Of a DNA stretch of 21,993 nt, positions 3 to 18,978 are shown in pieces. The first letter of the stretch is position 1. Every line of letters begins with the position of its first letter. Origin of the DNA: a virus. The notes beneath the pieces were generated by a model, which ran no database searches, was not told the origin of the DNA, and was given only the letters and a program-made list of their open reading frames with translations. The DNA lies in the IMG/VR virus record IMGVR_UViG_3300022818_000079, positions 1-21,993 of that record; one strand, given 5' to 3'. The translations under genes were made by a program, and so were the position numbers.

Positions 3-1229
3 GTCAAGGTGCTTGTCAATGGCGGACAAATATCCATAAGCTTGCGGATGCAAACTGACGCGAAAGTAAAGGGGTCGGTCGATGAGTCTAAAATTGTTGC
101 ACAGATTGAAAAAACACAGGCCGCAGAAGTGGCAAAGATAAAAAAAGAACAATCTGAAGCATGGGTTACGTCGAATCAAAAAGCCGCCGATGCGGTTGTT
201 AAAAAAATAGCTGATACCGCCAAAAAGATCAAGGAGCATTTTGAAGGTATGATTGTGGCTCAAGCAAACTGGGCGAATCTTGGCGTCAAAACAACTTCAA
301 CTCTTGCTGAAAAAATGGAAGCAGCTTTAAATAAATGGAAGATTGGTTTTGGAAAAAATATAGATGAAGTCAAGAAAAAGTTTTTAGGGTTTACCGTGAC
401 ATCAGCAACAGGATTTCAGGACTACCTCCAGATTATGCAACAGGGCATGAGTAGCTTTTTTAGCAATATGGGGCAAGCGTCCGATAACTATCTCAAAAAA
501 GAATTGGCAAGAATTGAAAAAATATACCAAAAGCGAAGGGATGATCTTAAAAAAACATACGATGAAAAAATAGCTGCCCTCAATGCGATTGATGCCGCCG
601 AAGCAGAGGCCGCCCAAAGAAAAGAAATTATGACATCGGATATGACCGAGCAGGAAAAGATCAATGCCTTATTGGAAATAGATATAGCAAAAAATAAAGC
701 CGACGCCAGGGCAAAAATAGAGTCGGATTATGTTAAAGCGCAAACTGCTATTGATGAACAGGCAGCAAGAAATAAACGGCAGCTTGAATATAACGCCGCA
801 AAGGCCAAACGTGACCTTGACATTTTCCAGGCGGTTACAAATATGGGCGTGGCGATAACGGCATCGTGGAAACTCGGCTGGCCCCTGGGTATGTTTGCTG
901 CCGCGTTTGCCGCTGCCGCTTGTATTATGCAGATTAGCAATATTAAAAAAGCTCCACTGCCCGCCCTGGCTGAAGGCGGCTTGATCAATCGGCCCACACA
1001 AGTTCTGGCTGGCGAAGCTGGCCCGGAAGCAATCCTCCCTATGCGCGAATTACAGCGAATGCTCGGTGTGTCACGAAATGGCAGCGGTGGCAGTAAGACC
1101 GTTCAGGTCAATGTCACTGCCGTTGACGCGTATGGCTTTGATCGGATAATAAATGAAAAACTGATCCCCAGGCTCACGCGCGCGCTCAACAATGAATCGT
1201 TCACAATCCCCGTAAAGGCGGTAAGATAA
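3..1229 (+). CDS. Tail tape-measure protein, C-terminal part (5' end outside window)
   Basis: The reading frame is open to the left edge, so the start lies outside the window; the GTG at 9 is only an internal codon. The tape-measure protein sets tail length and fills the tail tube of siphovirus-like phages. Visible evidence is a long charged, Lys/Ala/Glu-rich coiled-coil region, a hydrophobic Ala-rich stretch around residues 280-305, and near the C-terminus the GGLINRPTQVLAGEAGPEAI segment, which is typical of tape-measure C-termini. It is followed after one base by the next tail gene, as expected in a tail operon. Function is assigned from the C-terminal motif and gene order; the family is otherwise poorly conserved. 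Confidence 0.8.
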   Translation, partial: VKVLVNGGQISISLRMQTDAKVKGSVDESKIVAQIEKTQAAEVAKIKKEQSEAWVTSNQKAADAVVKKIADTAKKIKEHFEGMIVAQANWANLGVKTTSTLAEKMEAALNKWKIGFGKNIDEVKKKFLGFTVTSATGFQDYLQIMQQGMSSFFSNMGQASDNYLKKELARIEKIYQKRRDDLKKTYDEKIAALNAIDAAEAEAAQRKEIMTSDMTEQEKINALLEIDIAKNKADARAKIESDYVKAQTAIDEQAARNKRQLEYNAAKAKRDLDIFQAVTNMGVAITASWKLGWPLGMFAAAFAAAACIMQISNIKKAPLPALAEGGLINRPTQVLAGEAGPEAILPMRELQRMLGVSRNGSGGSKTVQVNVTAVDAYGFDRIINEKLIPRLTRALNNESFTIPVKAVR

Positions 1230-1230
1230 A

Positions 1231-1992
1231 ATGAGTAAGTTATTAATTTCATACGTCAATGACTGGGATGCCGGAACGCTGACTTACACATCACAGCATC
1301 CGTCTTTCCCAGCAACGCATACACAACAGCGGTGGTTCAAGAAGCCGTGGCGGTCTGAATACCCAGCAGATCATACGACTGATCAGTATTTATATTGCGA
1401 TCTTGGAAGTACCAAAACGATTAAATTTATATCCGTTAAAAACCATAATCTACGCGCGGCAACCGGATCAATAACCGTTATTTATTATTCTGATGCCTTC
1501 TCTACAATAGCTGCGACGGACGTTTTAACCTGGCATGCTGGCATAATGGCAATCAGGGTCAATCGCAGTTACCGATACATTGCTTTAAAGGTTTCAGACC
1601 CCAGCAATCCGGACACTTATCTGGAGATCGGGCGCGTATGGGTGGGTGGTGAGTTTGTAGCACATTATGGCTTTACAATGGACAGAACTTATGCGCCGCA
1701 AGACCCTTCTGTGATTTCTTCAAGCGACGACGGCCAGGAATCATCTGTGCAACGCTCCCGCTATGGCGAATGGAACTATGTTTTCGATGCCATGACCGCT
1801 GCGGATCGGCTTGTATTTGCCGCTCTATTCCTGGCAATCGGAAAATCGATGCCCTGCTTTATTGCCGAGGTTCCTCCAGCGGCTGGCGATATGGGATTGA
1901 AAGCGCAGTATGTAAAATTCATCGAATGGGAAGAGCCGCACGTTGTCGGCACGTACTGGGCGCTGTCCGTTTCTGTGAGGAGTGAACGGTGA
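1231..1992 (+). CDS. Tail protein, possibly distal-tail (Dit)-like
   Basis: A 253-residue protein placed between tape-measure and tail-tip genes, the usual place of the distal tail protein. The N-terminal half (about residues 50-140) is beta-rich, with a pattern of alternating aromatic and hydrophobic residues that resembles a discoidin or carbohydrate-binding fold. The C-terminal part (about 175-250, including RYGEWNYVF and later WALSVSVRSE) is reminiscent of hub-ring tail proteins. No catalytic motif is visible. The stop overlaps the GTG start of the next gene (GTGA), implying translational coupling. The Dit assignment is inference from position; the tail role itself is fairly safe. Confidence 0.6.
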   Translation: MSKLLISYVNDWDAGTLTYTSQHPSFPATHTQQRWFKKPWRSEYPADHTTDQYLYCDLGSTKTIKFISVKNHNLRAATGSITVIYYSDAFSTIAATDVLTWHAGIMAIRVNRSYRYIALKVSDPSNPDTYLEIGRVWVGGEFVAHYGFTMDRTYAPQDPSVISSSDDGQESSVQRSRYGEWNYVFDAMTAADRLVFAALFLAIGKSMPCFIAEVPPAAGDMGLKAQYVKFIEWEEPHVVGTYWALSVSVRSER

Positions 1993-3650
1993 TTTACGTC
2001 AGCAAGCAATTAAATAACGCGGCTTGGTCGATGGCGAACCCGGCCTGGGCGTTGTCCTACGATTCTCCGGCAGGTCAAATACTTTGCCAAGCGGAGTACT
2101 TGGGAAAACTGTATGCTGGCGGGGACAACGGCAATATCTATGTTTTCGACGGGACCACTTGGGCGTTGTCGTATGATAGCGCTTCCCATTCTATCAATGC
2201 GCTTTATGTTTGGAATGGGAAATTATACGCTGGTGGAGGAAATAGTTACGAGATTGCAGGTGTTTTATCGTTCATATATGTTTTTGACAGCACTACATGG
2301 GAGGTAGCCTTTGCCTCTGATCCTGGTGGAGGATATGCTCCGAAATGTCTTGCTTTGTGTGCTTTGGGTGATACCTTATATGCGGGATTTAAAGGGGGTA
2401 GTTTTTATTCTCCAGGCGCATTTGAGATTCTTAAAACTACCAATGGTACAACTTGGACCATTTCGCAAGGATGGGTTTTTAATTGGACCCATGCTTTAAC
2501 GGTTTTTAATGGGAACCTATATTCCGCTGGTGAAACGCATGGTATTTGGAAATTAACTATAGCAACGGGAGCTTGGTCTCAAGTAGATACGACTGAGATT
2601 TTTTGGTATGCTCTCTATGTCTGGAATAATAAAATTTATGCTGGTGGGGGAAATGGCAAAATCCTCGTTTCCAGTAATGGATCGACATGGACTGAAGCGG
2701 TAGACCTTGGCGCTGGTAATATTCGTGCCTTTTATGAATACAACGCAAAACTCCTTGCGGCTTACGATGACAAAATCTACGAAACCGTTGACGGCACAAC
2801 CTGGACACTATTCTACGATTCAGTGGAAGCGGCGATTTATAGTCTTATCCTTTTTGGCACTGGCCTTTATGCCGGAACCGGAAGCGCTGGGAAGATATTA
2901 GTCTATAACACAATTGCCTGGAGTTGCGCTTTTGCTTACGGCGAAATTCTTGATCTTCAAGTTGATGGCGTTTCACTCACAAGAAAATACAGCCAAGCTG
3001 ATTGTATTACAACGGTAAATTCCTATTTTCACGATCATGTTTTTGCAGGGATTCTATATGTCCATATAACCGGCGGAGCAAGCCCAGGCACGCACATTGC
3101 TCCAGCCTATGTCTACGACGTGCTTGCTTTTTATTGGCGCGCAATCGAGCCTATTTTTTCCGGTGATCTCGGCCCCTGCGAACTTACCTGGAATGGAGTT
3201 TATATCGGTCCGACTCAAGGTGGAGTCAAGATTAAATTTGACGCAAAGGCCATTAATATAAAAGAGGACGGCCACGGATGCGCGGCCCTGGATGCTGTTT
3301 TTATCGGCGCGGTTGTTGCTGATATAGAAGTACCTTTGACAAGGTTTACGTTGGATGAATTGAATGCTCTGACAAAGGATTCTGTACTAATTGGTTCTGA
3401 ATTGACTCTGCAAAATCCAGTCGGCTCTTCCATGTATGAGAATGCCCAGCCGCTTATTTTAAAGCCGCTGGTTAACGGAGCAGCGGCGGTTCTATCTTCA
3501 CAATGGATCACTTTTTTTAAAGCCTTTCCCGCTGCGCGATGGGAGTTTGGCTATGACAATAACGAACAGCGAATTTATAAAGTCGCTTTTAAAATTTTCG
3601 TCTGCCAGGAAGCGCCTAATATTAATGACATATTCAAACTTGGAGGATAG
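1989..3650 (+). CDS. Tail protein with inserted seven-bladed beta-propeller
   Basis: A 553-residue protein starting at GTG (GTGA overlap; GAGGAG upstream). Residues about 20-311 hold seven repeats of roughly 40 residues with the pattern x-L-Y-A-G-G ... I-Y/L ... T-T-W, for example KLYAGGDNGNIYVFDGTTW near residue 40. This is the signature of a seven-bladed beta-propeller, a fold often used for ligand or receptor contact. The flanks, residues 1-20 (KQLNNAAW) and 311-390 (YGEILDLQVDGVSL), match the N-terminal domain of the next protein (KQLNAAVW and YGEAVEIQVDGVSL) almost contiguously. The propeller therefore appears inserted into a domain shared by both tail proteins. The remainder (about 390-553) is unrecognised. 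Likely a tail-tip or receptor-binding component. Confidence 0.65.
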   Translation: MIYVSKQLNNAAWSMANPAWALSYDSPAGQILCQAEYLGKLYAGGDNGNIYVFDGTTWALSYDSASHSINALYVWNGKLYAGGGNSYEIAGVLSFIYVFDSTTWEVAFASDPGGGYAPKCLALCALGDTLYAGFKGGSFYSPGAFEILKTTNGTTWTISQGWVFNWTHALTVFNGNLYSAGETHGIWKLTIATGAWSQVDTTEIFWYALYVWNNKIYAGGGNGKILVSSNGSTWTEAVDLGAGNIRAFYEYNAKLLAAYDDKIYETVDGTTWTLFYDSVEAAIYSLILFGTGLYAGTGSAGKILVYNTIAWSCAFAYGEILDLQVDGVSLTRKYSQADCITTVNSYFHDHVFAGILYVHITGGASPGTHIAPAYVYDVLAFYWRAIEPIFSGDLGPCELTWNGVYIGPTQGGVKIKFDAKAINIKEDGHGCAALDAVFIGAVVADIEVPLTRFTLDELNALTKDSVLIGSELTLQNPVGSSMYENAQPLILKPLVNGAAAVLSSQWITFFKAFPAARWEFGYDNNEQRIYKVAFKIFVCQEAPNINDIFKLGG

Positions 3651-5990
3651 ATGACGTACCGAAACGACTGGAAAAACCTGCGGATTGTTGAGATCAAGGT
3701 AGGCAAGCAATTGAATGCAGCAGTCTGGACACAGGACGGGGACGTTTGGTCAACGCCATTTATTTACGGCGAAGCGGTAGAGATTCAGGTGGACGGAGTA
3801 TCGCTTATTAAGGAAACAATCTATGCCAATTGCGCTGCATTGGAAGGTTCTTTTTTCCATGATTTTTTTGCTGGGATTTTATACGTTCACTTAGCTGGTG
3901 GAGTCAATCCGGGCGCGTACGTCTCACCCAGCTACACTTACAACATCGTCGCTTTTTTCTGGAAGTGTTTTGCTAACCGGCAAGAAGTCGGAGCAGAGGC
4001 TGTTGTATTTATTCCTACTGGTTGCACGTATCCTGCCTTCTATGACCCGACATTGAAAGCTGAATCTTTAAGCCAGCTTACCGCTACAGTGGCAGACCAT
4101 TTTGAATCAGCAATGGAAACTTCATCCGGCGGCATTTCAATTACAAACGCAGACGGCTGGTGGTACAGCGCCATTGATGATTTCTACTGGAACAATGCTG
4201 ACATCAGGGCGCGGGTTGGAGAGGTCGGGGATATTTATGCTGACCTGGAAACTATTTTTACTGGCAAGGTTCGGACGCCTTCGGTTACAGATGATGCAGT
4301 TACTTTTGAACTGGTAGATTCGCGCGAAGGGCGGCTACAGTCCATTCCCACGACTCACTATGACTTGATTCGTTTCCCAAATATGGACCCGGATACTGCC
4401 GGCGTCCCCATTCCTATTTTATTTGGTGAGAAAAAAAACATCACGCCGGCCAAGATAGATGCGGTCACATTTACTTATAAAATATCCGAAACTCATTTCG
4501 GGACTACCGTGTTTGAATTGGAAGCCATTGACGCAGTTTATCTCAAGGGCGTTGCCCTGACTGCGATAACGGATTACGTCGAAGATTTACATAATGGCGA
4601 ATTTCATTTAACCGCTGACCCCGGAGATGGTTTGGTTACTTGCGACGCGAGAGGAATACAGGACGGATTCAATATGTCAACTGGATTGGCAACCGGATTG
4701 TACTCTGAAGCGGTTGCCTGCCATCTATTTTTTGTCTTACACATTCTGAATGAAATCTCAGTGGTCGACATCGATCTGATCAGTTTTCTTGACTTATCTT
4801 TTGCCCGGACACAGGCGGTTGCATGGTTTTTAGATACGGATACGCCGACAATTGATTTTAACCGGCTACTTCAAAAAACTTCAATTTACCATTTTCTCCC
4901 ACTGAACGATGGAACTTTTGCTGCAAAATATTATAGAAAAACCGTCCCAGTAGGAACGCTTGAACTTCGCAATTATGACCATGCCAGTTTCAAAAAAACA
5001 AAACCGTCCGACGGAGTTTTCCGAGACATAACTTTGAAGTATAGCAAAGATCCGACGACTGGGATTTGGCTCACAGTCCAGCATACCGAAAACACAGTCC
5101 AGCAAAACTACCAGACAAAGGAACCGTATACTATTGAGACCGCTCTACGTGATGCGACGGAAGCAGCCCAGGTTTTGGCGTTTTATGTTTCATTGCTTAA
5201 GGCCCCAGCCACAAAAATTGAAACATCTATCTCCATGATTGGAGCAGCAATACTGCCGACTGACAAACTTTACAACAACAGGGACATTGTAGCTGATGGA
5301 AAACCTGTAATAATTTCAGCCGATGAAGTCTATGTCATTCTCCAGACGCGCAAAGATTTTAATGCCGGCCGTGTTGGAGTGACTGCGCAGCTCGATACGC
5401 AGCTTTCAATTTTTTCAGTTTATGCCGATATGGCATACCAGGATGTAGCGCATGGAGATCATTCAGACGTAGCCCACATTGACGGCGGCTACGGTGACCA
5501 CACAGACGAAAACTATGAGGACTTGCCCCATGATGACCACGACGATGATATGCACAATGATATTTTATATGGGGATGCCGAACATACCGACCATCAGGAT
5601 GGTCCCTATTACGATGACTGGGGGCCGTTTGATACCCCACACGTAGATGAAACTTATGATGATCATGATGACATTGCCTATGCTGATCACGCAGATAATG
5701 ATCACGAAGATATTACTCATCTGGACCATACAGACGCGACGCATTCACACGAAGATTATGCTTATCTGGACGCGACTCACGAGGATCATCAGGACGGACC
5801 TTATTATGATGATTATGCTCATACAGATACACCGCATGGAGATATCACTTATACTGATCACAGCGACGTTACTCATCAAGACTTGCAACACACCGACGCG
5901 CCTCACGTGGACACGCCTTATGACGATCATACCGACACGATTCATACAGACGCGCATACCGATATTGCGCATATTGATTCAGAATTATAA
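3651..5990 (+). CDS. Large tail-tip protein with C-terminal [His/Tyr]-X-Asp repeat tail
   Basis: A 779-residue protein with a good GGAGG site just before its ATG. The N-terminal domain (about 15-115) is paralogous to parts of the preceding protein. The middle (about 200-580) is beta-rich, with a segment around 245-265 (DPDTAGVPIPILFGEKKNI) typical in style of phage tail hub or baseplate proteins; no enzyme motif is evident. From residue 591 to 776 the protein changes to an extraordinary low-complexity tail of about 40 [H/Y]-X-D triplets, mostly spaced 3 or 5 residues apart. This tail contains no Cys and almost no Lys or Arg. Eleven bases later begins a radical SAM/SPASM gene, so the tail is a candidate substrate. 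A plain metal-binding role is the main alternative. Confidence 0.7.
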   Translation: MTYRNDWKNLRIVEIKVGKQLNAAVWTQDGDVWSTPFIYGEAVEIQVDGVSLIKETIYANCAALEGSFFHDFFAGILYVHLAGGVNPGAYVSPSYTYNIVAFFWKCFANRQEVGAEAVVFIPTGCTYPAFYDPTLKAESLSQLTATVADHFESAMETSSGGISITNADGWWYSAIDDFYWNNADIRARVGEVGDIYADLETIFTGKVRTPSVTDDAVTFELVDSREGRLQSIPTTHYDLIRFPNMDPDTAGVPIPILFGEKKNITPAKIDAVTFTYKISETHFGTTVFELEAIDAVYLKGVALTAITDYVEDLHNGEFHLTADPGDGLVTCDARGIQDGFNMSTGLATGLYSEAVACHLFFVLHILNEISVVDIDLISFLDLSFARTQAVAWFLDTDTPTIDFNRLLQKTSIYHFLPLNDGTFAAKYYRKTVPVGTLELRNYDHASFKKTKPSDGVFRDITLKYSKDPTTGIWLTVQHTENTVQQNYQTKEPYTIETALRDATEAAQVLAFYVSLLKAPATKIETSISMIGAAILPTDKLYNNRDIVADGKPVIISADEVYVILQTRKDFNAGRVGVTAQLDTQLSIFSVYADMAYQDVAHGDHSDVAHIDGGYGDHTDENYEDLPHDDHDDDMHNDILYGDAEHTDHQDGPYYDDWGPFDTPHVDETYDDHDDIAYADHADNDHEDITHLDHTDATHSHEDYAYLDATHEDHQDGPYYDDYAHTDTPHGDITYTDHSDVTHQDLQHTDAPHVDTPYDDHTDTIHTDAHTDIAHIDSEL
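5421..5978 (+). repeat. Coding repeat array of about 40 [His/Tyr]-X-Asp triplets
   Basis: This stretch encodes residues 591-776 of the upstream tail protein. Counting by eye gives 40 triplets of His or Tyr, any residue, then Asp, with start-to-start spacing of 3 or 5 in nearly all cases (rare 4, 6, 7 and one 11). A longer unit recurs 65 residues apart: residues 645-674 and 710-739 both run H-x-D-HQDGPYYDD and continue with a similar TPH-x-D ending. The DNA of the two copies differs at many third positions, so the protein pattern rather than the DNA is being kept. Confidence 0.9.
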
Positions 5991-6001
5991 AGGAGATAAA
6001 A

Positions 6002-7153
6002 ATGGGATTGACAATCAAGCCGATTGCCTGCCCTGGCGGCTGTCTGGGGTGTTATGAAAAAGAAATAAGGGAAAGCGGGACTGCTCCAAAATTTGAAATC
6101 GCAAAAGTCCTGAAAACTCTTGCCGCGCAAATGGAACTGGATAAAGAATGCAAATGGAATAGTCCGACGCTGCACGGCGGGGAGCCGTTGTTGTTGCCAA
6201 TGAATGAAATTGAAGCAATTCTAAAAATGATTTTTGATAAATACGGACGGACAGGAATCCAGACATCGGGGATTGGCATGCGACCGGATCATGTCAGTCT
6301 GTTCATCAAATACAAAACCTGCGTTGGAATTTCAATTGATGGCGATACTGCCTTCACAAATGCCGGACGCTGGAATGCCCCAGGATTCGATGCTGCCGAA
6401 ATGACACAGAAAACACTTGACTCATTAAGTTATTTAAAAGCGGCCACGGTCACAACTTCGGCAATAGTTATCTTGCGTCAATGTAATGCTGGCCATACGA
6501 TTTTACGCGACGACCTGATCCGCTTTGCTTTGCGGCTGCGGGATGAGTTTGGAGTTTTAAGTATGCGCTTCAATCCGGTAATAGCTTTTGATGGACGGAC
6601 AGAAAAACTTGAGCAGCTTAATAATAAATCCCTGTTTGCAGTTTACCGTCGGCTGATTTTAAGAGTAGTTGCTGACGAAACCTTGAAATGGTACCCGGCA
6701 TTGGATTTTATAAAACTACTCAATGGTGGATCAGGTGAATGTATTTTTACCGAATGCGATCCCTGGGCGACCGATGCTGAAATCCCCATTTTAGGTGACG
6801 GTTCATTGTCTGTATGTATGAAGTGCGAAGGACTGATTCTGCGGACAGAGAAAAGCAATGCGCGATATGAAGCGCTCCGACAAGTAAGGCAAGAGGTAGG
6901 CGGTTGCAAGGGGTGCTATTGGTGGCCATTTTGCAAGGGCGGCTGTCCCGGTGCTGGTATTAACGGCGACTGGAGAAACCGTAGTCGGTTCTGCGAGGCT
7001 TATAAAAAAACTTTCGGCTTCGTTTCTGAGCTGGCCGTATTCAATAAGCAGATAAATGACTGCAAGCAGTCAAATGAACATGGTGACAAAGCGCATGGGG
7101 ATTCTAATGACCCGGCCTGGCGGAAGATTCATACTGAATGGAAGGGAAAATGA
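6002..7153 (+). CDS. Radical SAM/SPASM peptide-modifying enzyme
   Basis: A 383-residue protein with ribosome site AAAGGAG directly before the ATG. Cys10, Cys14 and Cys17 form the CX3CX2C motif that holds the SAM-cleaving 4Fe-4S cluster, and GGEP at 59-62 is the usual SAM-contact motif. A C-terminal SPASM-type Cys set is visible: Cys247, 252, 272, 275, 302, 305, 311, 315 and 331, including CKGCYWWPFCKGGCPG, enough for two auxiliary clusters. SPASM enzymes mostly modify ribosomally made peptides or proteins (sulfatase maturases, cross-linking and cyclophane-forming RiPP maturases). It lies 11 bases after the tail gene with the [H/Y]-X-D repeats and overlaps the next gene by ATGA, so the three probably act together. 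The substrate is inferred from position only. It is unusual among phage tail operons. Confidence 0.92.
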   Translation: MGLTIKPIACPGGCLGCYEKEIRESGTAPKFEIAKVLKTLAAQMELDKECKWNSPTLHGGEPLLLPMNEIEAILKMIFDKYGRTGIQTSGIGMRPDHVSLFIKYKTCVGISIDGDTAFTNAGRWNAPGFDAAEMTQKTLDSLSYLKAATVTTSAIVILRQCNAGHTILRDDLIRFALRLRDEFGVLSMRFNPVIAFDGRTEKLEQLNNKSLFAVYRRLILRVVADETLKWYPALDFIKLLNGGSGECIFTECDPWATDAEIPILGDGSLSVCMKCEGLILRTEKSNARYEALRQVRQEVGGCKGCYWWPFCKGGCPGAGINGDWRNRSRFCEAYKKTFGFVSELAVFNKQINDCKQSNEHGDKAHGDSNDPAWRKIHTEWKGK

Positions 7154-8004
7154 AACTGATACCTGATTTTAAAATAACACCTTTTACTCGTATTGCCTGG
7201 GTCTCTACCGCTGCAAAAAATACTTGGGCCGGAGTCATCCAGCAATGCGCGACTATGGTTAACGAATTGGAAATTGAATCCGTCGCGGCTGGGCAACGAA
7301 ATTGCGCATGGTCAACGATCAGGCGAGAGGCGCTGCCGGACTTTATAAAACGATGCGCGGACAAGGGCTTGATTGTCATGCCGATAAAATGGGTAGGTTC
7401 ATTTCCTGGAAATGGCTTTTTGCATTACACCCCAAAAGGCGATAGCCAGGCGTATTGCATTATTGCTCGGCATCTCGATCATGCGATAAAATTCCGGGAT
7501 GCCTTTGAAGCTGGAGACCACGAAGCGCAAGGGGGGCAGCTCGGATTCCCGGCCTGTTGCAGCAAGGCATTTACTGAAAACTGGAAGGCAGGATTTTTTG
7601 ACCCGATATGGCAAGCGGCTTACGATGGACCGGAAAAAATGAAAGTTTCCGAAAATGAAATATTTACCGTCCTATCCGTTCAGAAAAAAACTTTCATTCA
7701 TCCATACTCAAATCCACTTTTACGTTACATTGGTTTGCGCGTAGGTTTCCATATACCACATAATTTTAATTGCCATGAAACAATAACCGCCGGGATTGAG
7801 CGCCTGTCACTTGCCAAAGATCGGGAGCTGGTAAAACTGCTTGAAGCGCTTTTATCTATGCCAATGCGCGCCGAATTATTTCATGGCATTTTGACCGTGA
7901 AAACTCCGCTATTTCATTTAATAACCTATTCAGTACCGACCGAAGAAAAATATACAATAGAGGTTGCTGGGAAGTTTATCCCAAAGGAAGGTATTGGAAT
8001 ATAG
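7150..8004 (+). CDS. DUF483-like partner of the radical SAM enzyme
   Basis: The ATG at 7150 overlaps the radical SAM stop (ATGA) and has GAAGGGA at good spacing, so I prefer it to the in-frame ATG at 7138; the product is 284 residues. The segment LGFPACCSKAF (Cys136-Cys137) followed later by FHIPHNFNCHETI resembles the G-[YF]-P-x-C-C-x-x-x-[FY] and Cys/His features I recall for DUF483-type proteins, of unknown biochemical role. Several other Cys and His residues could bind metal. The coupling to the upstream enzyme suggests an accessory or partner function in the same modification, for example substrate recognition. It is the last gene before a stretch with a new promoter. The family call is from motif memory and should be treated as moderate. 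Confidence 0.6.
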   Translation: MKLIPDFKITPFTRIAWVSTAAKNTWAGVIQQCATMVNELEIESVAAGQRNCAWSTIRREALPDFIKRCADKGLIVMPIKWVGSFPGNGFLHYTPKGDSQAYCIIARHLDHAIKFRDAFEAGDHEAQGGQLGFPACCSKAFTENWKAGFFDPIWQAAYDGPEKMKVSENEIFTVLSVQKKTFIHPYSNPLLRYIGLRVGFHIPHNFNCHETITAGIERLSLAKDRELVKLLEALLSMPMRAELFHGILTVKTPLFHLITYSVPTEEKYTIEVAGKFIPKEGIGI

Positions 8005-8133: not shown

Positions 8134-8340
8134 ATGGCAAGGAAACGAAATGCTGGTAGGGAGCCCAAAAACTGTATTTTCTGCAATTCGAAGTTTTTAC
8201 CAATTACTGCATGGCAAAAATTCTGTAAGCCAAAATGTCATAATGAATATTGGACAAGTCGGCGGTCAAATCCAGATGACAGATTTTTGAAAATAGAAGC
8301 ACGGCTTGATGCTTTGGAACTACAAGGAAAATCAGAATGA
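8134..8340 (+). CDS. Small zinc-finger-like protein
   Basis: The start is the ATG at 8134, which has GGAGG eight bases upstream; the earlier in-frame GTG at 8098 coincides with the predicted transcription start. The 68-residue product has Cys14-x2-Cys17 and Cys31-x3-Cys35, consistent with one zinc site of the kind found in short phage and HNH-associated zinc ribbons, followed by a charged C-terminal helix (RFLKIEARLDALEL). First gene of the transcript from the 8064 promoter. It overlaps the HNH gene by ATGA, so the two may be co-translated. A DNA-binding role is plausible but unproven. Confidence 0.7.
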   Translation: MARKRNAGREPKNCIFCNSKFLPITAWQKFCKPKCHNEYWTSRRSNPDDRFLKIEARLDALELQGKSE

Positions 8341-8906
8341 AACAATTTCTATGTCTCTATGGTAACGTAGGGCTTGTTCGCGGGTTTTGTCCTAATTGTC
8401 AAAGTGAAGCAATTATTCTTGATAACAAATATACTTGCTGCGATTTCCCAATTGAAACAAATCCTGAAAAAGTAAAAAGAATGATTGAACCAATTTCTAT
8501 GCGAAAAATTCCACCCATAGCGGAACGAAGGGAAATTTTAAAATTACAAAATAATTGTTGCTTTTATTGTGGTAATGAATTTGATTCTTTTGTATGGCGA
8601 ATTCGTAAAGAAAAACAAAAAATAATAAAAGTAAAACTTTCATGGGATCACCTAATCCCTTTTAAGTTTTCACAAAATAATTTTGCTTATAATTTTGCGG
8701 CTGCTTGTCGAACTTGCAATTCAATTAAAAGCGATCATATCTATAAAAATATAGATGAAATGAAAATAGTTATGGCTTATCGGCGACGCAAAATAGGGTA
8801 TGTGGCAAACGATGACTCGCGACTTACTGAAGATAATCTTGCGCAGATCTCCGACCATGAAGACCACTTGGAAAAGCTGAAATTGTTAGAAAATAACAAT
8901 AAATAA
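8337..8906 (+). CDS. HNH endonuclease
   Basis: A 189-residue protein. Residues 70-135 hold an HNH fold: Cys75-x2-Cys78, the WDH motif with Asp104-His105, Asn119, and Cys124-x2-Cys127 followed by Asn128 and Lys131. The N-terminus has another Cys group (Cys18-x2-Cys21 and Cys34-Cys35), suggesting an extra zinc knuckle. The HNH fold cuts one or both DNA strands using a single metal ion. In phages such free-standing genes are homing endonucleases or packaging/defence nucleases; no terminase neighbours it, so homing or an accessory nuclease role is more likely. AT-rich codon use compared with the tail genes fits a mobile origin. Confidence 0.85.
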   Translation: MKQFLCLYGNVGLVRGFCPNCQSEAIILDNKYTCCDFPIETNPEKVKRMIEPISMRKIPPIAERREILKLQNNCCFYCGNEFDSFVWRIRKEKQKIIKVKLSWDHLIPFKFSQNNFAYNFAAACRTCNSIKSDHIYKNIDEMKIVMAYRRRKIGYVANDDSRLTEDNLAQISDHEDHLEKLKLLENNNK

Positions 8907-9916: not shown

Positions 9917-10163
9917 TCGGCCTGTTCTGCTGGCAAAAAATCCATCAGCTTGTTCTGCTTGTGGCTATCTGGACTTTGAGCGTTCAATATACGGCTCCGA
10001 ACCAAATGGCTATCCGGTTGCAGTGATGGGTTGGTACTGCCGGAAAACGCGCGGTTATTGTCAGCTCCACGATAAGTGGTTCGATGAGGAGCAGAAAGTA
10101 ATAACTGTCAAAGTGACCAATGTAGCAGACGGCAGAAGTTGGGAAGAGGAGATGATAATATGA
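9909..10163 (+). CDS. Small Cys-rich hypothetical protein
   Basis: Start at ATG 9909, inside the previous gene's end, with GGTGGGA upstream; the frame opens earlier at a GTG (9897) that lacks a ribosome site. The 84-residue product has a Cys-x2-Cys pair (CSAC, residues 15-18) and two later Cys around CRKTRGYC, which could hold one zinc ion. Overlaps the next gene by ATGA. Function unknown. Confidence 0.65.
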   Translation: MNNRPVLLAKNPSACSACGYLDFERSIYGSEPNGYPVAVMGWYCRKTRGYCQLHDKWFDEEQKVITVKVTNVADGRSWEEEMII

Positions 10164-10309
10164 AATGTTATAAATGCAAAAAACAAATCAACATTTCTGT
10201 TCGCAAACTTATCGGCGATAAATTTCGGGATGTATGCAAAAGATGTTATAAAGAAATAATGGCAAATGATGGGTATATTTTAAAAAATGGTATATGGAGA
10301 TTAAAATGA
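10160..10309 (+). CDS. 49-residue zinc-ribbon protein
   Basis: Begins with an ATGA overlap and ends with another ATGA overlap, so both borders are well defined. Cys3-x2-Cys6 and Cys26-x2-Cys29 form a minimal four-Cys zinc ribbon; the rest is Lys-rich, suggesting nucleic-acid contact. It is similar in style to other small phage zinc ribbons, but its function is unknown. Confidence 0.7.
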   Translation: MKCYKCKKQINISVRKLIGDKFRDVCKRCYKEIMANDGYILKNGIWRLK

Positions 10310-10518
10310 CCGACAGTGAAATTTACTTTGATCCCGAAATCGAAAAGGTCCGGAAGCTGGGCTATCAAAACGGCTTGGCCGGGAAAATGGACAGCCGCGT
10401 GAAATATCGCATGGCCTACATGAGTGGCTACCAGACCGGCACGAAGGAACGGGCAAAAAATATATATGATGCCCGGGTGAAAAATATTAAAAAAGTGAGG
10501 GAGGCGAAAAAATGCTAA
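10306..10518 (+). CDS. Small hypothetical protein, 70 residues
   Basis: ATG 10306 overlaps the prior stop (ATGA) and has GGAGA five bases before it, so it is preferred to the ATG at 10294. The product has a repeated helix-like pattern, LGYQNGLAGK and MAYMSGYQTG, and a basic C-terminus. No family recognised. Overlaps the next gene by seven bases. Confidence 0.6.
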   Translation: MTDSEIYFDPEIEKVRKLGYQNGLAGKMDSRVKYRMAYMSGYQTGTKERAKNIYDARVKNIKKVREAKKC

Positions 10519-10772
10519 CATTAAAAATGCTAAAGGATATGCCGCCAGGAACGGTATTCGCTACCGGAGTTATATCTGACGCCCGGCTTGCTAATGAGCC
10601 AATACGTTGGGCAGCAAAGCGCGGTGGAATCCATGACTGGGCAATATATTATCATCTGGAATCTAAAAGCCTTGATTTTGTTGTAACTCAAGGGGATAAG
10701 GTTTTTTCAAAAAATATAATTCAAGATTTGGTTCCCTGTGATGATGAAGCCCTATCAATGTATAGGAGATAA
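10512..10772 (+). CDS. Small conserved-looking phage protein, 86 residues
   Basis: Strong ribosome site (GGGAGG) before the ATG. The product reads LKMLKDMPPGTVFATGVI near the start, then RWAAKRGGIHDWAIYYHLES and VPCDDEALSMYRR at the end; this organisation recalls a common family of small phage proteins of unknown function, but I cannot name it with confidence. A compact beta-rich fold is likely. Lies in the middle of the small-gene operon. Confidence 0.65.
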   Translation: MLTLKMLKDMPPGTVFATGVISDARLANEPIRWAAKRGGIHDWAIYYHLESKSLDFVVTQGDKVFSKNIIQDLVPCDDEALSMYRR

Positions 10773-10773
10773 T

Positions 10774-10974
10774 ATGAAAATACGACAAGTCAAAAAGAAT
10801 GGTCGGCTGCTGATTGCTTTGGAAAATTTCTATGGGTCATCAGTTATAGCAACAGACGCCATGCAAAACCTTTCCTTTACAACGGCAATGATGGTATTTG
10901 TGCTTAGGAATTTGCGGCTTCATTCCGTCCCGGCGCTTTATGGATGCCGGGCAATCGTAAAGAGGCAGCCATGA
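10774..10974 (+). CDS. Small hypothetical protein, 66 residues
   Basis: Start at ATG 10774, with AGGAG immediately before it; the frame extends upstream into the previous gene but without support. The product starts basic (MKIRQVKKNGRLLIALENFY) and has a hydrophobic middle (TAMMVFVLRNL). The stop overlaps the next gene's ATG (ATGA). Function unknown. Confidence 0.6.
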   Translation: MKIRQVKKNGRLLIALENFYGSSVIATDAMQNLSFTTAMMVFVLRNLRLHSVPALYGCRAIVKRQP

Positions 10975-11060
10975 AAAAACAAACCTGGAAAACCATCGGT
11001 GAATTAATCATTGCCGGGCTGATATTTTTGCTGGCCTGGGTGTTATTAAATGCGTTTTAA
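10971..11060 (+). CDS. 29-residue single-pass membrane peptide
   Basis: ATGA overlap with the preceding stop. The product begins with a basic MKKQTWK and has one clear membrane segment (LIIAGLIFLLAWVLL). Small membrane peptides like this are common in phages; it is far from the lysis genes, so a holin role is not supported. The gap to the next gene (11061-11090) only holds that gene's ribosome site. Confidence 0.55.
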   Translation: MKKQTWKTIGELIIAGLIFLLAWVLLNAF

Positions 11061-11090
11061 AATTTATCAAATAAATCTAAAGGAGGATTT

Positions 11091-11822
11091 ATGAAGGAAA
11101 CCAACACAAGTCAGTTGCAGGATGCGAAAATCAAGGCGCTCCTGTATGGAAAATCGGGAACTGGGAAAACGTCAACGGCTTTGACTTTGAAGCCGTCAAC
11201 CACGCTTATATTAAGCGCGGAAAGTGGCTTGTTGCCATTAGCGGGAAAAGATTATGCCGTATGGGAAATTGAGTCGTTTGATGATATGGGAGAATCATAT
11301 AAACGACTTTTAAATCCCGAATTGCAATCTAAGTTCAAGGTGATTTTTGTAGACTCGCTTTCCGAAATAAACGAGCTCTGCAAAGAAAAAATCGTAAAGA
11401 TTGATCGTCCTGGGCTGGGGAAAGATTTAGGTAAGTCATATGACGATTTGCTTCAAATGCAGGACTATCAATTGCTTCAAGTAAGAATGACGAGAATGAT
11501 CCGTGCTTTCCGAGACCTTCCCTTTCATATCATTTTTACTGCGCTTGAGGACAACATTAAAGATGAACGCACGGGAGAAATCCAGGTGGTTCCGTCAATT
11601 AATGGAAAATTGGCAACCAACGTAGCGGGATTTTTCGATGAGGTTTTTCGCCAATCAACAAAAGAAATTGATGGAAAACTTCAATATCTATTCACTACCG
11701 GAAAGGTCGAAAAAGCAATTGCCAAAGATCGAAGCGGTGCATTGAACCTTTATGAAGAGGCGTCCTGGAAAACCGTGTTTGAAAAGATTTTCAAAAAATT
11801 TAAAGTCAAGGAGGAAAAATAG
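11091..11822 (+). CDS. Sak4-like RecA-fold ATPase (single-strand annealing recombinase)
   Basis: A 243-residue P-loop ATPase with AAAGGAGG upstream. Walker A is GKSGTGKT (residues 20-27), and Walker B is KVIFVDSLSE with Asp88. Length, N-terminal P-loop and context fit Sak4-type phage recombinases, which act with a phage SSB to anneal or exchange DNA strands. An SSB-like protein and a RecB-like nuclease lie just downstream. The first of three consecutive genes whose end carries the AAGGAGGAAAAATA junction, so the following gene is tightly coupled. A general AAA-type ATPase is the alternative. Confidence 0.8.
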   Translation: MKETNTSQLQDAKIKALLYGKSGTGKTSTALTLKPSTTLILSAESGLLPLAGKDYAVWEIESFDDMGESYKRLLNPELQSKFKVIFVDSLSEINELCKEKIVKIDRPGLGKDLGKSYDDLLQMQDYQLLQVRMTRMIRAFRDLPFHIIFTALEDNIKDERTGEIQVVPSINGKLATNVAGFFDEVFRQSTKEIDGKLQYLFTTGKVEKAIAKDRSGALNLYEEASWKTVFEKIFKKFKVKEEK

Positions 11823-11823
11823 T

Positions 11824-12192
11824 ATGTCAAAGGAAAAAGTTGAAGTGAAAAAAGTTACAGTTTACGGGAAACACAATTTCAGCGAAGAGGAAAAGCGCCA
11901 GGTAGCAACCGAACTTGCTGAAAAAGTACAAGAAGGGAAAAGGATTGAGGATGAAATGGTTTCGATGAAATCCAGTTTTAAGTCAAAGCTGGATGTGACT
12001 GAGGCAACGGTCAACAAGCTCTCCGTTGATTATGCTTGTGGTTATGAAATGCGGATGATTCCGTGTACTGTTGAATTTGACATGAAGAAAAAAGAAAAAA
12101 GGTTCTACGAAGTCGAAACAACGGTATTGATTAAGACGGAACCAATGACCGAAGAAGATTTACAAATGGAATTATTCAAGGAGGAAAAATAA
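11824..12192 (+). CDS. Hypothetical protein of the recombination module, 122 residues
   Basis: ATG at 11824 has GGAGG in the end of the ATPase gene; upstream in-frame codons overlap that gene and are not used. The N-terminal half is highly charged and helical (FSEEEKRQVATELAEKVQEG), likely coiled-coil; the C-terminal half contains a beta-like region with two Cys (YACGYEMRMIPC). Sits between the Sak4-like ATPase and an SSB-like protein, so a recombination or replication accessory role is likely but not shown. Confidence 0.65.
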   Translation: MSKEKVEVKKVTVYGKHNFSEEEKRQVATELAEKVQEGKRIEDEMVSMKSSFKSKLDVTEATVNKLSVDYACGYEMRMIPCTVEFDMKKKEKRFYEVETTVLIKTEPMTEEDLQMELFKEEK

Positions 12193-12193
12193 C

Positions 12194-12556
12194 ATGAGAT
12201 TATTACTAACGGTCGGGTATCAAAAGTTACTGTTTGGCAAGGGAACAAATGTAAGCGAGATCATTAATTCGCTTGACGGTGCAGCACTTATTGAGGAAAA
12301 GTATGTCGAAGGGCACACTAAAATTATCGTTAGGTCCCCCTCCGCCTATGAAAGTAATGAAATTGTCGTTAAACTTATCAATGATGATTCTGTCTTGCTC
12401 CCCGAAATTAAGGATGATAAGTTGGATATTTTGCTCAAAGTTCAAAAGAAAAGAGATGAATCTGAAAGTGAAAACTATGACCTCAAAAGCAAAATCAAAG
12501 AACTTGAAGCGAAAATTATTGAATTGACGCCCAGTGCAAAAAAGGAGGAAAAATAA
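12194..12556 (+). CDS. Hypothetical protein with C-terminal coiled coil, 120 residues
   Basis: Preceded by AAGGAGGAAAAATAAC. The N-terminal half is beta-rich (MRLLLTVGYQKLLFGKG), and residues about 80-112 are a strongly charged coiled coil (KKRDESESENYDLKSKIKEL) that could mediate oligomerisation. No family recognised. Same operon as the ATPase and SSB-like genes. Confidence 0.65.
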   Translation: MRLLLTVGYQKLLFGKGTNVSEIINSLDGAALIEEKYVEGHTKIIVRSPSAYESNEIVVKLINDDSVLLPEIKDDKLDILLKVQKKRDESESENYDLKSKIKELEAKIIELTPSAKKEEK

Positions 12557-12557
12557 C

Positions 12558-13010
12558 ATGGAGCGATTAAATTTAAAGGGAAAGGGGGGAAGTATGTTTT
12601 TAGAACCGGGGACTCATTTGGTTCATATTTTTGAAGTCAAGGACAATGACAAAACGCCGAAGCCGTCCATTGACGTTATTTTCAAAAACGATCAGGGGCA
12701 ATCCATCAAGGAAATGTTTTCGCTTTCCGAAAAAGCACAATGGCGACTGGCTCTTTTAGCAATCGCCTGCGGTTATGCTACCGACTCTGATGATCCGCGC
12801 CTGGATGATTTTCTCCCTACCGACCTAATCGGAAAAGACGTTATGATTCAGGTGGTCAAGGTGGACAAATATTCAGAGGTCAAAAGTTTTTGGAAAGTTG
12901 ATCTGGCTGCGAAATTATTAATTGATGGCCTGAAAAGGAATCCTGGTCCAGCAGCCAAGAAATCAGACCCGGCAAACGAAAGCGAACCGCCGGACAACAA
13001 TCCATTTTGA
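12558..13010 (+). CDS. SSB-like single-stranded-DNA-binding protein (DUF669-like)
   Basis: Start at ATG 12558, with AAGGAGG in the end of the upstream gene. The 150-residue product has a beta-rich body (FLEPGTHLVHIFEVKDND, then IDVIFKNDQG, later KDVMIQVVKV) fitting an OB-type or DUF669-type phage protein. It ends in a Pro/Asp/Glu tail with the last residues DNNPF, which resembles the acidic aromatic tip of bacterial SSBs used to recruit partners. The next-door Sak4-like ATPase and nuclease support an SSB role. Fold assignment is from pattern only. Confidence 0.7.
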   Translation: MERLNLKGKGGSMFLEPGTHLVHIFEVKDNDKTPKPSIDVIFKNDQGQSIKEMFSLSEKAQWRLALLAIACGYATDSDDPRLDDFLPTDLIGKDVMIQVVKVDKYSEVKSFWKVDLAAKLLIDGLKRNPGPAAKKSDPANESEPPDNNPF

Positions 13011-13017
13011 GTTGAAC

Positions 13018-14013
13018 ATGATTCTGACATACTCAAGTATTTCGACTTTTAAGTCCTGCCGTCAAAAATATCAATACCGTTATGTTGACGGCATTGAACA
13101 GCGCGACCGCCCGATTTATTATGACTTCGGCACGGCAATTCATCTGGCCCTAGCCTCCCATTACCGGGGGGCCGGACGCCTTCGGGTAATTGAAGAGATT
13201 GAAAAATACTTTGCAGAGAACGCTCCTGCTCAAGATGAATCTGAGCGCCTGCAAAAGTGGATTGAGGCTAGGGATATGGTGGAATCTATGTATCTGAATT
13301 ATGTCTGGCGCTATCCGTCTGAACCTTTCAAGGTTTTGGCTATTGAAAAACCATTCGAGATTCCCATTATTGACGTGCGTGGGGATAAATACAAGGATAT
13401 GGTTTTGGCTGGCAAGGTGGACATGATTATAGATGAGAATGGTTTGTGGGTGGGAGAGAATAAATCAGCAAAAACCATTGACGCAAATTATGAAAAAAAA
13501 CTTACCCTGGATTCGCAGTCAATGATTTATCTGGAGGCTATGGAGCGAGTTTATGGAACAAAATTCAATGGAGTGTTTTATAACGTCCTTGCAAAGTCAG
13601 TCCCAGATAAACCGACCACTTTAAAAAATGGTTCATTATCAATGGCTAAAAACCAAAACACTACTCCGGAAATTTACCTTGAAGCAATCCGAGAAGGCGG
13701 ACTGGACGATATCGATTATAAAGAATTCCTGGAATATCTGGAAGTTAACCGCCGGAGATATTTTTACCGGGAATATTTAACCTTCACCCAGGAAGATCGG
13801 CAAGAATGGCGGCGGGAACTTTGGCAGATTGCAGCGGACATTGAAAGGGCGGCGGAACTTGGGGCCTATTATAAAAACACGCAACAATGCGTGGGATTTG
13901 GAACGTGTCCATATTTTGAAATCTGCTGCGCGCCGGACAAAAATTTTGTGATCGAAAATTCCTATGAAAAGAAGGCGATACATTCCGAACTTGAAACAGA
14001 GGAGGTGTTTTAA
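13018..14013 (+). CDS. PD-(D/E)XK nuclease, RecB/Cas4/AddB-like with Fe-S Cys set
   Basis: ATG 13018 (331 residues) is chosen; a TTG at 13012 is possible, and the ribosome site is weak for both. The start LTYSSISTFKSCRQKYQYRY is typical of RecB-family nucleases. Catalytic residues visible: Asp135 in GKVDMII, then Glu147-x-Lys149 in GENKSAK, and the QSMIYLEA helix (Q-x3-Y motif). Cys14 plus Cys291, Cys297 and Cys303 match the Cys pattern that pins a 4Fe-4S cluster in AddB and Cas4. It would resect DNA ends for annealing by the Sak4-like protein and SSB. No CRISPR array or cas1/cas2 is seen, so a stand-alone phage exonuclease is the best reading. Confidence 0.85.
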   Translation: MILTYSSISTFKSCRQKYQYRYVDGIEQRDRPIYYDFGTAIHLALASHYRGAGRLRVIEEIEKYFAENAPAQDESERLQKWIEARDMVESMYLNYVWRYPSEPFKVLAIEKPFEIPIIDVRGDKYKDMVLAGKVDMIIDENGLWVGENKSAKTIDANYEKKLTLDSQSMIYLEAMERVYGTKFNGVFYNVLAKSVPDKPTTLKNGSLSMAKNQNTTPEIYLEAIREGGLDDIDYKEFLEYLEVNRRRYFYREYLTFTQEDRQEWRRELWQIAADIERAAELGAYYKNTQQCVGFGTCPYFEICCAPDKNFVIENSYEKKAIHSELETEEVF

Positions 14014-14153
14014 TGGACAGAGAACAGGAAACTTTGAACGTTATTCAGGGATTGCTTGACCTTGTGAAAAATATGCAAATTGAGATTAACAAATTGACTT
14101 GCGAAATCGCTGAACTGCGAACCAAGATTATCTCCACTAACAACAACAAATGA
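14013..14153 (+). CDS. 46-residue coiled-coil peptide
   Basis: The ATG overlaps the preceding stop (TAATG) with GGAGG just upstream, and the stop overlaps the next ATG (ATGA). The whole peptide is helical with heptad-like Leu/Ile spacing (LLDLVKNMQIEINKLTCEIA). Function unknown, but borders are well supported. Confidence 0.65.
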   Translation: MDREQETLNVIQGLLDLVKNMQIEINKLTCEIAELRTKIISTNNNK

Positions 14154-14725
14154 TTCTAATCGGCGACTTGGATAGTCTTGCGGCAGAGTACAGGGCATCA
14201 TGGTCTGGACTCTGTCGCGGGAATCCACGGACAGCATATAAATTCGGGCCTGATGGAGTAGAGCTCAGGCACGATTTTATGCGCTGGCTTGGACGCCAGA
14301 CAAATAAAAATAAGGAGGACAACATGGTATTAGTTGAAAGGTACGGTACGTCGTCAAGAATGGTGCTTGTCTTTGAAGGCAATGATGAAGGGAAAACGGT
14401 TGAACAAATACTGGCTGAAACGATTTGCAGACTTGCTCCAAATGGCGGGCCGGTGGATAGCTGGGCGATCCATTTTTCATCTATGCATCATCCGTTCAGC
14501 ACAACGCAGCGGCTCAGGGAACTGAAGATTACATTTATAAAATGGTGGACTTCTGATTATCTGGATAGGCACAGGGAATTGTGGGCAGAAAACAAGGAAT
14601 TGAAACCATTTGCGATCAAGTCTCCGCATCCATATGATTTCGTCAAAAAGGAATTCAAGTATTATTTCTATCCAGAATTTGTCGCCTGGTTGCGCCGGGA
14701 ATATTTGGAAGTGAAACATGGATAG
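14150..14725 (+). CDS. Hypothetical protein with two plausible starts
   Basis: The frame starts with an ATGA overlap at 14150 (191 residues). A second in-frame ATG at 14324 has a strong AAGGAGG site, giving a 133-residue form. The first 58 residues (for example DLDSLAAEYRASWSGLCRGN) look like real protein, so both forms may be made, or the long form may be a fusion with an embedded start. The rest is aromatic-rich (FIKWWTSDYLDRHREL, YYFYPEFVAWLRREYL) with no known motif. Overlaps the next gene by eight bases. Confidence 0.6.
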   Translation: MILIGDLDSLAAEYRASWSGLCRGNPRTAYKFGPDGVELRHDFMRWLGRQTNKNKEDNMVLVERYGTSSRMVLVFEGNDEGKTVEQILAETICRLAPNGGPVDSWAIHFSSMHHPFSTTQRLRELKITFIKWWTSDYLDRHRELWAENKELKPFAIKSPHPYDFVKKEFKYYFYPEFVAWLRREYLEVKHG

Positions 14726-14927
14726 GAAATACAACAGCCAGGAACGCCACTACAAAGACCCAGACAAGTGCCGCAGCACCCGCTCAATTGCATTCACAGA
14801 CGCCGAATGGGAAACGGTGAATAAAGCCGTGGCGGTCAGTGGAGTCGGCAAGGGTCAGTTCATGGTCGCCAGGGCGCAGGAGTATTTGATGATGTGTGAG
14901 ATGCGGAAGGCAGAGAGGGGCGAGTGA
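14718..14927 (+). CDS. Ribbon-helix-helix-like DNA-binding protein
   Basis: The 69-residue product has a basic N-terminus, a short strand RSIAFTDAEWETV and two helices (VNKAVAVSGVGKG and QFMVARAQEYL), the layout of Arc/MetJ- or MobC-type ribbon-helix-helix proteins. These bind DNA as dimers and often act as regulators. It overlaps both neighbours (upstream by eight bases, downstream by GTGA), linking it to the methyltransferase. The fold call is by pattern. Confidence 0.6.
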   Translation: MDRKYNSQERHYKDPDKCRSTRSIAFTDAEWETVNKAVAVSGVGKGQFMVARAQEYLMMCEMRKAERGE

Positions 14928-16659: not shown

Positions 16660-16665
16660 ACTGCG

Positions 16666-16673
16666 AAATCTCA
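16666..16673 (+). repeat. Left 8-bp inverted repeat of the inversion
   Basis: AAATCTCA is the exact reverse complement of TGAGATTT at 17123-17130. Exactly eight bases match. A local hairpin (AATCTC/GAGATT, 16667-16683) overlaps this end and may help breakage or strand switching. Confidence 0.85.
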
Positions 16674-17122
16674 TAAAGAGATTCTGAAGTTATAAATGCA
16701 GTATTGGCAAAGTCTTTAAGGTATTCTAACTGTACGGCTTTTGCAAGATGTGTTTTGCCGCGTCCCGTTTGGCCGTAAATAATCAGTGTTTGAAATTCAG
16801 ATTTTTCCCAGTTTTTAACCTTACTAAAAGCATCCTGATTTTCATTTTCAATCTTAAAGGTTTTGAAGTTCTTTTCTTTGTCAGTATGCTTTTCTATATT
16901 CTCATTTACCTTTTCAATAACCCGATCTGGGCATATCTCGCGAATAGATTCAGTCAACCATTTATCGCGACGAATTCCAGGACCCCAGCCATAATAAGCC
17001 CAGTGGAATCCTTCAAAGCAGACCATATAAGTGACAGCATCGATCTGCGTCGGATTTTCGTGATTCATCTTTCGCACGATACGCTCGTGAATTTTATCTG
17101 CAATTTTACGATCATCATCTTT
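16674..17122 (-). other. Inverted 449-bp segment carrying the helicase-loader N-terminal half
   Basis: On the minus strand this segment encodes residues about 7 to 155 of the loader, including Walker A (YGQTGRGKTHLAKA). In the present orientation the minus-strand frame opens at a GTG (17077) and runs out past the left repeat to 16643, ending with a few junk residues. There is no evidence that this fragment is expressed. It is the only minus-strand coding sequence of the window. Confidence 0.85.
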
Positions 17123-17130
17123 TGAGATTT
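17123..17130 (+). repeat. Right 8-bp inverted repeat of the inversion
   Basis: TGAGATTT, the partner of AAATCTCA at 16666. In the restored gene these bases encode part of Tyr-Glu-Ile-Leu, in frame on both sides. Confidence 0.85.
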
Positions 17131-18209: not shown

Positions 18210-18212
18210 AAC

Positions 18213-18972: not shown

Positions 18973-18978
18973 TAAAAT

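Follow-up and report, generated by a model that had tools for sequence, protein, structure and literature searches.

We have analysed a window of 21,993 bases, which is a single viral record (IMG/VR IMGVR_UViG_3300022818_000079), and describe in it a phage tail-tip protein that ends in a long run of [His/Tyr]-x-Asp triplets and is followed by the genes of a SPASM-type radical S-adenosylmethionine (radical-SAM) enzyme and of a DUF483-like partner. Our comparisons of gene content support the view that, in dozens of phages, this enzyme and its partner are linked with tail proteins rich in aromatic-x-Asp/Asn triplets. We consider it very likely that the triplets are modified by the enzyme pair. 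In the full reading, tens of aromatic-to-Asp/Asn cyclophanes, made by a new SPASM clade with a previously unrecognised Cys-rich partner, would lock a virion tail or fibre protein into a rigid rod, in a widespread phage system that includes enzymes which bear the motif themselves and may modify it, and a bacterial branch of ribosomally synthesised and post-translationally modified peptides (RiPPs). We give this reading a probability of about 0.5.

The tail-tip protein (779 aa, 3651..5990, plus strand, as are the features of the two genes that follow it) is the proposed substrate, and its residues 131-401 match phrog_8917, which has no known function. Its C-terminal repeat region (residues 589-779; 5415..5987) spans 191 residues and holds 42 [His/Tyr]-x-Asp triplets, 28 with His and 14 with Tyr, which are the proposed modification sites. 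Asp stands two places after 28 of the 29 His and 14 of the 16 Tyr in this region, and the triplets follow each other at a spacing of 5 (26 times) or 3 (10 times). When the region was shuffled 20,000 times, the number of such triplets averaged 11.7 and never exceeded 23. An earlier note, made from this DNA without database searches, had described such a tail, and the repeat indeed lies far above shuffled expectation. The arrangement that it gave for the downstream genes was likewise read in the sequence. The tail stop codon is separated by 11 bases, which contain the ribosome-binding site AGGAGA (5991..5996, directly after the stop codon), from the ATG at 6002 of the radical-SAM gene (383 aa, 6002..7153), the proposed maturase, which scores above the cut-off of Pfam PF04055. 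The enzyme has the CX3CX2C motif of the SAM-binding 4Fe-4S cluster (C10, C14 and C17; 6029..6052) and nine Cys between residues 247 and 331, as the note had stated. The partner gene (7138..8004) overlaps the end of the radical-SAM reading frame, and encodes 288 aa if it starts at 7138, or 284 aa if it starts at 7150 by ATGA overlap.

Profile searches gave 10, later 80, viral loci and 78 bacterial loci, designated here by L numbers; E-values from scans of the collections are relative to the candidates. Single-protein scans of the viral contigs with the window enzyme and the tail body as queries found nothing, and profile scans were needed. Among 56 dereplicated viral loci found via the enzyme, a dense repeat open reading frame (ORF) is present in 53, directly upstream in 40, and the partner is present in 55. 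Accordingly, the enzyme in viruses is not one that mostly stands beside another small peptide. Two of the three loci without a repeat ORF, L005 (phiLo-like) and L116, are short contigs, and L144 is the one exception. This locus carries two radical-SAM and two DUF483-like genes at 10001-14857, with no dense repeat ORF within 10 kb. A tail-tip body like that of the window, with a His-x-Asp tail and adjoining the enzyme, was found in 6 further loci. An AlphaFold2 model of the tail body from six sequences reached a predicted local distance difference test (pLDDT) score of only 44 and was not used.

In 50,697 phage records, tblastn with the window enzyme and partner matched only the Thermus phages phiMa, Cumys and phiLo (31-34% identity), and two repeat-protein queries matched the same three phages only. 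Neither a nucleotide search with the tail gene nor tblastn with the tail body gave a match in phages. In phiMa and Cumys a largely His-x-Asp protein, phiMa_29 and Cumys_13 respectively, is encoded directly upstream of the enzyme, after baseplate genes. In phiLo three His-x-Asp repeat proteins of 474-782 aa are encoded a few kilobases from the enzyme; their genes are on the opposite strand, apart from the enzyme gene, which lies just past IS605-family transposase genes (L004:3804-5099 and 10815-11944).

The association was also seen from the side of the repeat. An enzyme-blind scan of viral contigs with a DNA pattern encoding four His-x-Asp triplets spaced five residues apart gave an in-frame dense ORF in at least 45 loci, and 29 of the 45 listed have heterogeneous triplets. 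Among these listed matches, the enzyme is on the same contig in 28 of the 29 heterogeneous loci, the remaining one (L251) being a 10-kb fragment; heterogeneous repeat genes that routinely lack the enzyme were thus not seen. Dense ORFs without the enzyme are, among the same matches, mostly simple DNA repeats or members of a collagen-like family, one member of which (L247) does have the enzyme on its contig. Considering that some heterogeneous loci are near-copies or contigs already found via the enzyme, we estimate that about 20 of the 29 are independent.

Within the triplet, the first and third positions are conserved. Across 90 non-redundant repeat proteins, Asp or Asn stands at +2 of 2,665 of 2,743 His (97%), and Pro is never found in the middle position (0 of 3,082 triplets). 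In 51 related pairs of repeat proteins, change rates were 4.4% for His, 12.5% for Asp, 24.5% for the middle residue and 30.4% for the spacer, and synonymous codon differences were seen at about a quarter of the His and Asp that are kept (about 26% for His). Judged from these rates, the triplet His and Asp are under purifying selection. Where His is replaced (48 cases), the new residue is Phe in 15 and Tyr in 14, and where Asp is replaced (136 cases) it is Asn in 122. One relative, L124, uses Phe-x-Asn almost throughout. Its repeat is PFxN, with Asp or Asn at +2 of 37 of 40 Phe and only five His, and the same enzyme is nearby. Phe-x-Asn is intermixed with His-x-Asp/Asn in L121, L117 and L123, and Tyr-x-Asp is used in the window, L134, L021 and L052. 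Considering these Phe and Tyr variants, we take the repeat unit to be aromatic-x-Asp/Asn, which speaks against a metal-ligand repeat. The pattern of substitution fits the aromatic-x-Asp/Asn logic of three-residue cyclophane enzymes, to which the earlier note had pointed, and not metal binding.

In the enzyme, the CX3CX2C motif and eight further Cys (247, 252, 272, 302, 305, 311, 315 and 331; SPASM domain at 6740..6994, by alignment to the anaerobic sulfatase maturase structures 4k36 and 4k37) are invariant in 56 sequences. These eight would be enough for two auxiliary clusters, as in anaerobic sulfatase maturases (anSMEs). In a 53-row tree the His-x-Asp enzymes form a single clade (support 100/100) apart from GrrM, FxsB, XyeB and the sulfatase maturases. 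Many of these enzymes carry the motif themselves: C-terminal His-x-Asp/Asn triplets are found in 52 of 62 unique viral enzymes versus 10 of 54 bacterial ones, and the window enzyme has EHGDKAHGD, its two His-Gly-Asp triplets lying at 7079..7102. This substrate-like tail suggests self-modification or substrate mimicry.

The Asp right after the Cys of auxiliary cluster I (Aux I) is a catalytic residue of anSME. It is replaced in the His-x-Asp enzymes, the CDF of anSME being aligned with CGR in relatives and with C-M in the window. The window enzyme also does not reach the cut-off of the anaerobic sulfatase maturase model TIGR03942 (51.1 versus 349.45 bits). We set aside a role in sulfatase maturation because of these two results and the lack of a sulfatase target.

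The partner has conserved Cys of its own. Its P138, C140, C141 and C212 do not vary in 66 sequences, 97% of which have Cys at position 208, where the window has His. These residues fall in a P-x-C-C motif (7549..7560) and an H-x-P-[C/H]-x3-C motif (H205 to C212; 7750..7773); the latter, together with C140/C141, is likely to form a metal or Fe-S site, as the conserved Cys suggest. The four conserved thiolates also suggest a role in electron transfer, metal handling or substrate handling. By homology the label DUF483-like, which came from the earlier note, is correct, but no Pfam family matches the window protein itself; relatives match PF04467 weakly, with the homolog from L008 at 25.7 bits against a gathering threshold of 25 and others below it. 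The AlphaFold2 model of the partner is confident (pLDDT 91). A fold search with it against the PDB gave no match at E 0.001, and the best fold, 2guk (itself of unknown function; Z 6.6 over 101 residues), was not used to draw a function. In several relatives the partner is fused to a class-I methyltransferase-like domain.

Bacterial relatives point to a smaller version of the substrate. Across 62 dereplicated bacterial loci, the partner is present in 61 (fused to the enzyme in 21) and a dense repeat ORF in 30; some of these 30 may in fact be prophages, or phage contigs that were binned wrongly. In Bradyrhizobium, Paraburkholderia, Sphingomonas, Tahibacter, Dokdonia, Aquimarina, Marinicella and other genera, short ORFs of 76-107 aa, about 20 in all, lie close to the bacterial enzyme and terminate in (I/V)H(I/V/L)D followed by 0-3 residues. 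Examples, with both radical-SAM and DUF483-like genes close by, are L060:8660-8893, L065:6679-6933, L072:6640-6897, L075:5526-5762, L079:6697-6927, L081:3080-3316 and L090:12670-12969, and others exist. By their sequences, these ORFs look like an uncharacterised group of RiPP precursors, each with a leader and a core of one triplet. Since such precursor-like ORFs end in a single triplet, they support the triplet as the target of the enzyme. The Bradyrhizobium cluster (L065) further contains a B12 radical-SAM C-methyltransferase (TIGR03975), a YydG-like radical-SAM protein and an aKG-HExxH peptide beta-hydroxylase.

Other proteins were observed beside the bacterial enzymes. In the cyanobacterium Scytonematopsis (L024:9110-9874, minus strand), a KilA-N protein that ends in a His-x-Asp repeat is encoded beside radical-SAM and DUF483-like genes, and is a candidate non-tail substrate. 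A 1044-aa protein of Fulvivirga (L068:6841-9975), at a locus with the enzyme, has terminal H-[IV]-K repeats (PHIKHIKAPHIKHVK) and not His-x-Asp, which is possibly another target motif. In L022, L020, L045, L026, L036, L063 and L085, proteins of about 900-1400 aa that have between a few and about 18 His-x-Asp triplets, close to the C-terminus where read, adjoin the enzyme. The two of these tested against Pfam (L022 and L085) gave no match, and in L022 an HExxH hydroxylase-type gene follows the large protein.

Several known systems resemble this one in part. The His-Xaa-Ser (Hxs) system combines tandem His-x-residue triplets with radical-SAM maturases, and the earlier note had drawn the parallel. 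However, the Hxs triplet is H-x-S, whereas position three here is Asp or Asn in 97%, and Hxs has two dedicated radical-SAM proteins, HxsB and HxsC, whereas the window locus has one radical-SAM gene, whose product matches neither the HxsB nor the HxsC model of NCBIfam at E 0.1. Membership in Hxs is ruled out on these grounds, and the parallel does not hold as an identity. The anSME structures 4k36 and 4k37 are the closest solved ones and share the SPASM layout with two auxiliary clusters, but the Asp after the Aux I Cys and the sulfatase target are both missing for the His-x-Asp enzymes. HK97-type capsids carry autocatalytic isopeptide cross-links in the head, formed with no radical enzyme. Covalent reinforcement of the virion would be common to both, whereas we propose, from genes, a radical enzyme and the tail.

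The triceptide systems (XyeB/XncB, GrrM/OscB, YxdB, HaaB, YhhB and FxsB; PMC11002830) likewise have a SPASM enzyme beside an aromatic-x-residue substrate, and Tyr-x-Asp, His-x-Ala and Phe-x-Asn are known sites among them (PMC11002830). They use a short precursor with few sites, whereas here the substrate would be a phage tail protein with tens of sites; unlike them, the present system has a DUF483-like partner, a separate clade and an enzyme with its own triplets. RiPP clusters generally encode a short leader-core precursor; the window instead has the 779-aa tail protein, and short precursors are found in the bacterial relatives. We rate the system as putative triceptide-like chemistry with a new substrate class, a new enzyme clade and a new partner.

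The gene trio itself is not wholly new. Kolesnik et al. (2024; PMC11437467) described a module of radical-SAM and DUF483 genes with a third gene alongside in Cumys and phiMa, noted comparable loci in prophages and cyanobacteria, and suggested that the module modifies DNA. The radical-SAM and DUF483 genes of this module are homologous to those of the window. The gene upstream in these phages encodes the His-x-Asp repeat protein, while in the window the repeat is fused to the tail-tip protein; the passages of that paper that were found do not describe the repeat, and here the product of its gene is the proposed substrate. In a partial coverage of the literature, with few subscription journals, this was the only relevant paper found that connects radical-SAM chemistry to DUF483, to HxD motifs or to phage tails, and none was found there that ties such enzymes to tail proteins.

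In the mechanism that we propose, the radical-SAM enzyme and its partner would modify the approximately 42 aromatic-x-Asp triplets of the C-terminal segment after translation. Cleavage of SAM would give a 5'-deoxyadenosyl radical, which would take a hydrogen from the beta-carbon of Asp (or Asn), and this carbon would then form a bond with the side-chain ring that lies two residues earlier (His, Tyr or Phe), with the loss of two hydrogens per triplet. Known cyclophane enzymes join Tyr to the Asp beta-carbon (YxdB), His to Ala (HaaB) and His or Tyr to Arg (YhhB), and XncB and OscB join Phe to Asn and Trp to Asn or Asp (PMC11002830). Since known enzymes make such pairs, a link from His, Tyr or Phe to Asp or Asn is the best-supported one, and we regard cyclophane chemistry at the triplets, from i to i+2, as reasonably probable on this comparison. 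Cross-links repeated in this way would make a rod, at the tail tip or fibre, of a segment that is highly polar and otherwise disordered; this rod would be stiff and would resist proteases and heat. The function as a rod and the roles of the partner and of the enzyme tail are inferred.

Several points weigh against this reading. The tree does not place the clade beside any named cyclophane family, and gives it no firm position among the SPASM groups. The window enzyme scores below the NCBIfam cut-off of every named cyclophane family model, with bits against cut-off of 47.6/425 for AmcB, 44.4/445 for YhhB, 33.3/370 for FxsB, 24.8/310 for GrrM and 24.4/450 for XyeB. Over all repeat proteins, Asp is at +2 of only 32% of Tyr. 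The viral loci are partly related, and therefore their counts are not independent events. No cyclophane system is known to us to have a DUF483-like partner, and therefore an additional or different reaction may take place.

Such a reaction on the same triplets could be beta-hydroxylation or some other oxidation of Asp, epimerisation, or a modification that the partner and, in relatives, a fused methyltransferase would complete. The partner that is kept throughout, the methyltransferase-like fusions, the hydroxylase, C-methyltransferase and epimerase-type (YydG-like) genes of the bacterial cluster and the place of the enzyme outside all named families argue for it. However, the tolerance for His, Tyr or Phe with a fixed Asp or Asn at +2 best matches an aromatic-to-beta-carbon bond, and simple oxidation of Asp would have no need of an aromatic residue two places earlier; we consider another reaction possible but doubtful. 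The triplets could also be metal-binding or bridged His/Asp repeats that shape the tail with no covalent change, the enzymes acting elsewhere. Dense His and Asp resemble metal ligands, and metal-binding HxH sites occur in phage tail spikes. In this case the nearly uniform Phe-x-Asn repeat of L124, with the same enzyme nearby, would be hard to account for, His would not be expected to turn into Phe and Tyr instead of Cys, Asp or Glu, and heterogeneous repeats, among the matches listed, are hardly found where the enzyme is missing, so that metal binding is improbable.

Modification of phage DNA by the module, as suggested for Cumys and phiMa, was proposed from a deazapurine gene context in some cyanobacteria (PMC11437467, which in the passages found does not mention the repeat), and the KilA-N protein of L024 with its His-x-Asp tail would agree with it. 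On the other hand, the genes lie within the tail module in phiMa, Cumys, the window and L170, a repeat protein accompanies nearly all viral loci, the enzyme is of the SPASM type like peptide maturases, and the bacterial relatives accompany short precursor peptides. Accordingly, we consider this explanation highly improbable. Lastly, some matches of the DNA pattern that lack the enzyme are simple DNA repeats (L218, L224, L225, L235, L252 and L286), and the window repeat could be thought a functionless, low-complexity tandem repeat beside an unrelated gene. But it is heterogeneous, its His and Asp are kept despite synonymous codon variation, and its association with the enzyme is strong and broad; the selection pattern and the co-occurrence rule out such an artefact for practical purposes.

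The genes 5' of the repeat protein probably are tail genes, resembling a tape-measure end, a distal-tail-like gene and an Ig-domain gene. The likely tape-measure end and distal-tail gene (9..1992, plus strand) sets the locus in a tail-tip module, and the order is the same in the closest relative, L170, where, by our reading of gene order and sequence, tail tube, tape measure, distal tail, tail tip with His-x-Asp tail, radical-SAM enzyme and partner follow one another. The upstream tail gene with an Ig-like domain (1989..3650, plus strand) and the tail-tip gene (3651-5990) are consecutive, and their products are homologous over about 77 aa (E 6e-22), which suggests, from the sequences, a domain duplication within the tail module.

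Elsewhere in the window, a DnaC/DnaA-like ATPase appears to be split (16626-17426), its P-loop half being a minus-strand ORF at 16643-17077 and its putative C-terminal half lying on the plus strand at 17223-17426. As an imperfect 18-nt inverted repeat (16626-16643 / 17060-17077) flanks the inverted stretch, an inversion or an assembly error is possible. The window also has a GIY-YIG/NUMOD3 gene (18977-19780) and an HNH gene (8337-8906), both probable homing endonucleases, a DNA N6/N4 methylase gene (14924-15745) and lysis genes (17517-18662).

If the full reading is true, many phages use radical-SAM peptide chemistry, known from small bacterial products, for a structural part of the virion, and they would be a source of multiply cross-linked protein rods. 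The reading would account for a so far uncharacterised trio of genes in Thermus phages and prophages, and the reaction can be tested in phages that are in culture on Thermus thermophilus (Cumys, phiMa and phiLo). An unnamed SPASM clade and the DUF483-like proteins would gain a substrate, and Bradyrhizobium, Sphingomonas, Dokdonia and other bacteria would be indicated as carriers of an uncharacterised RiPP group.

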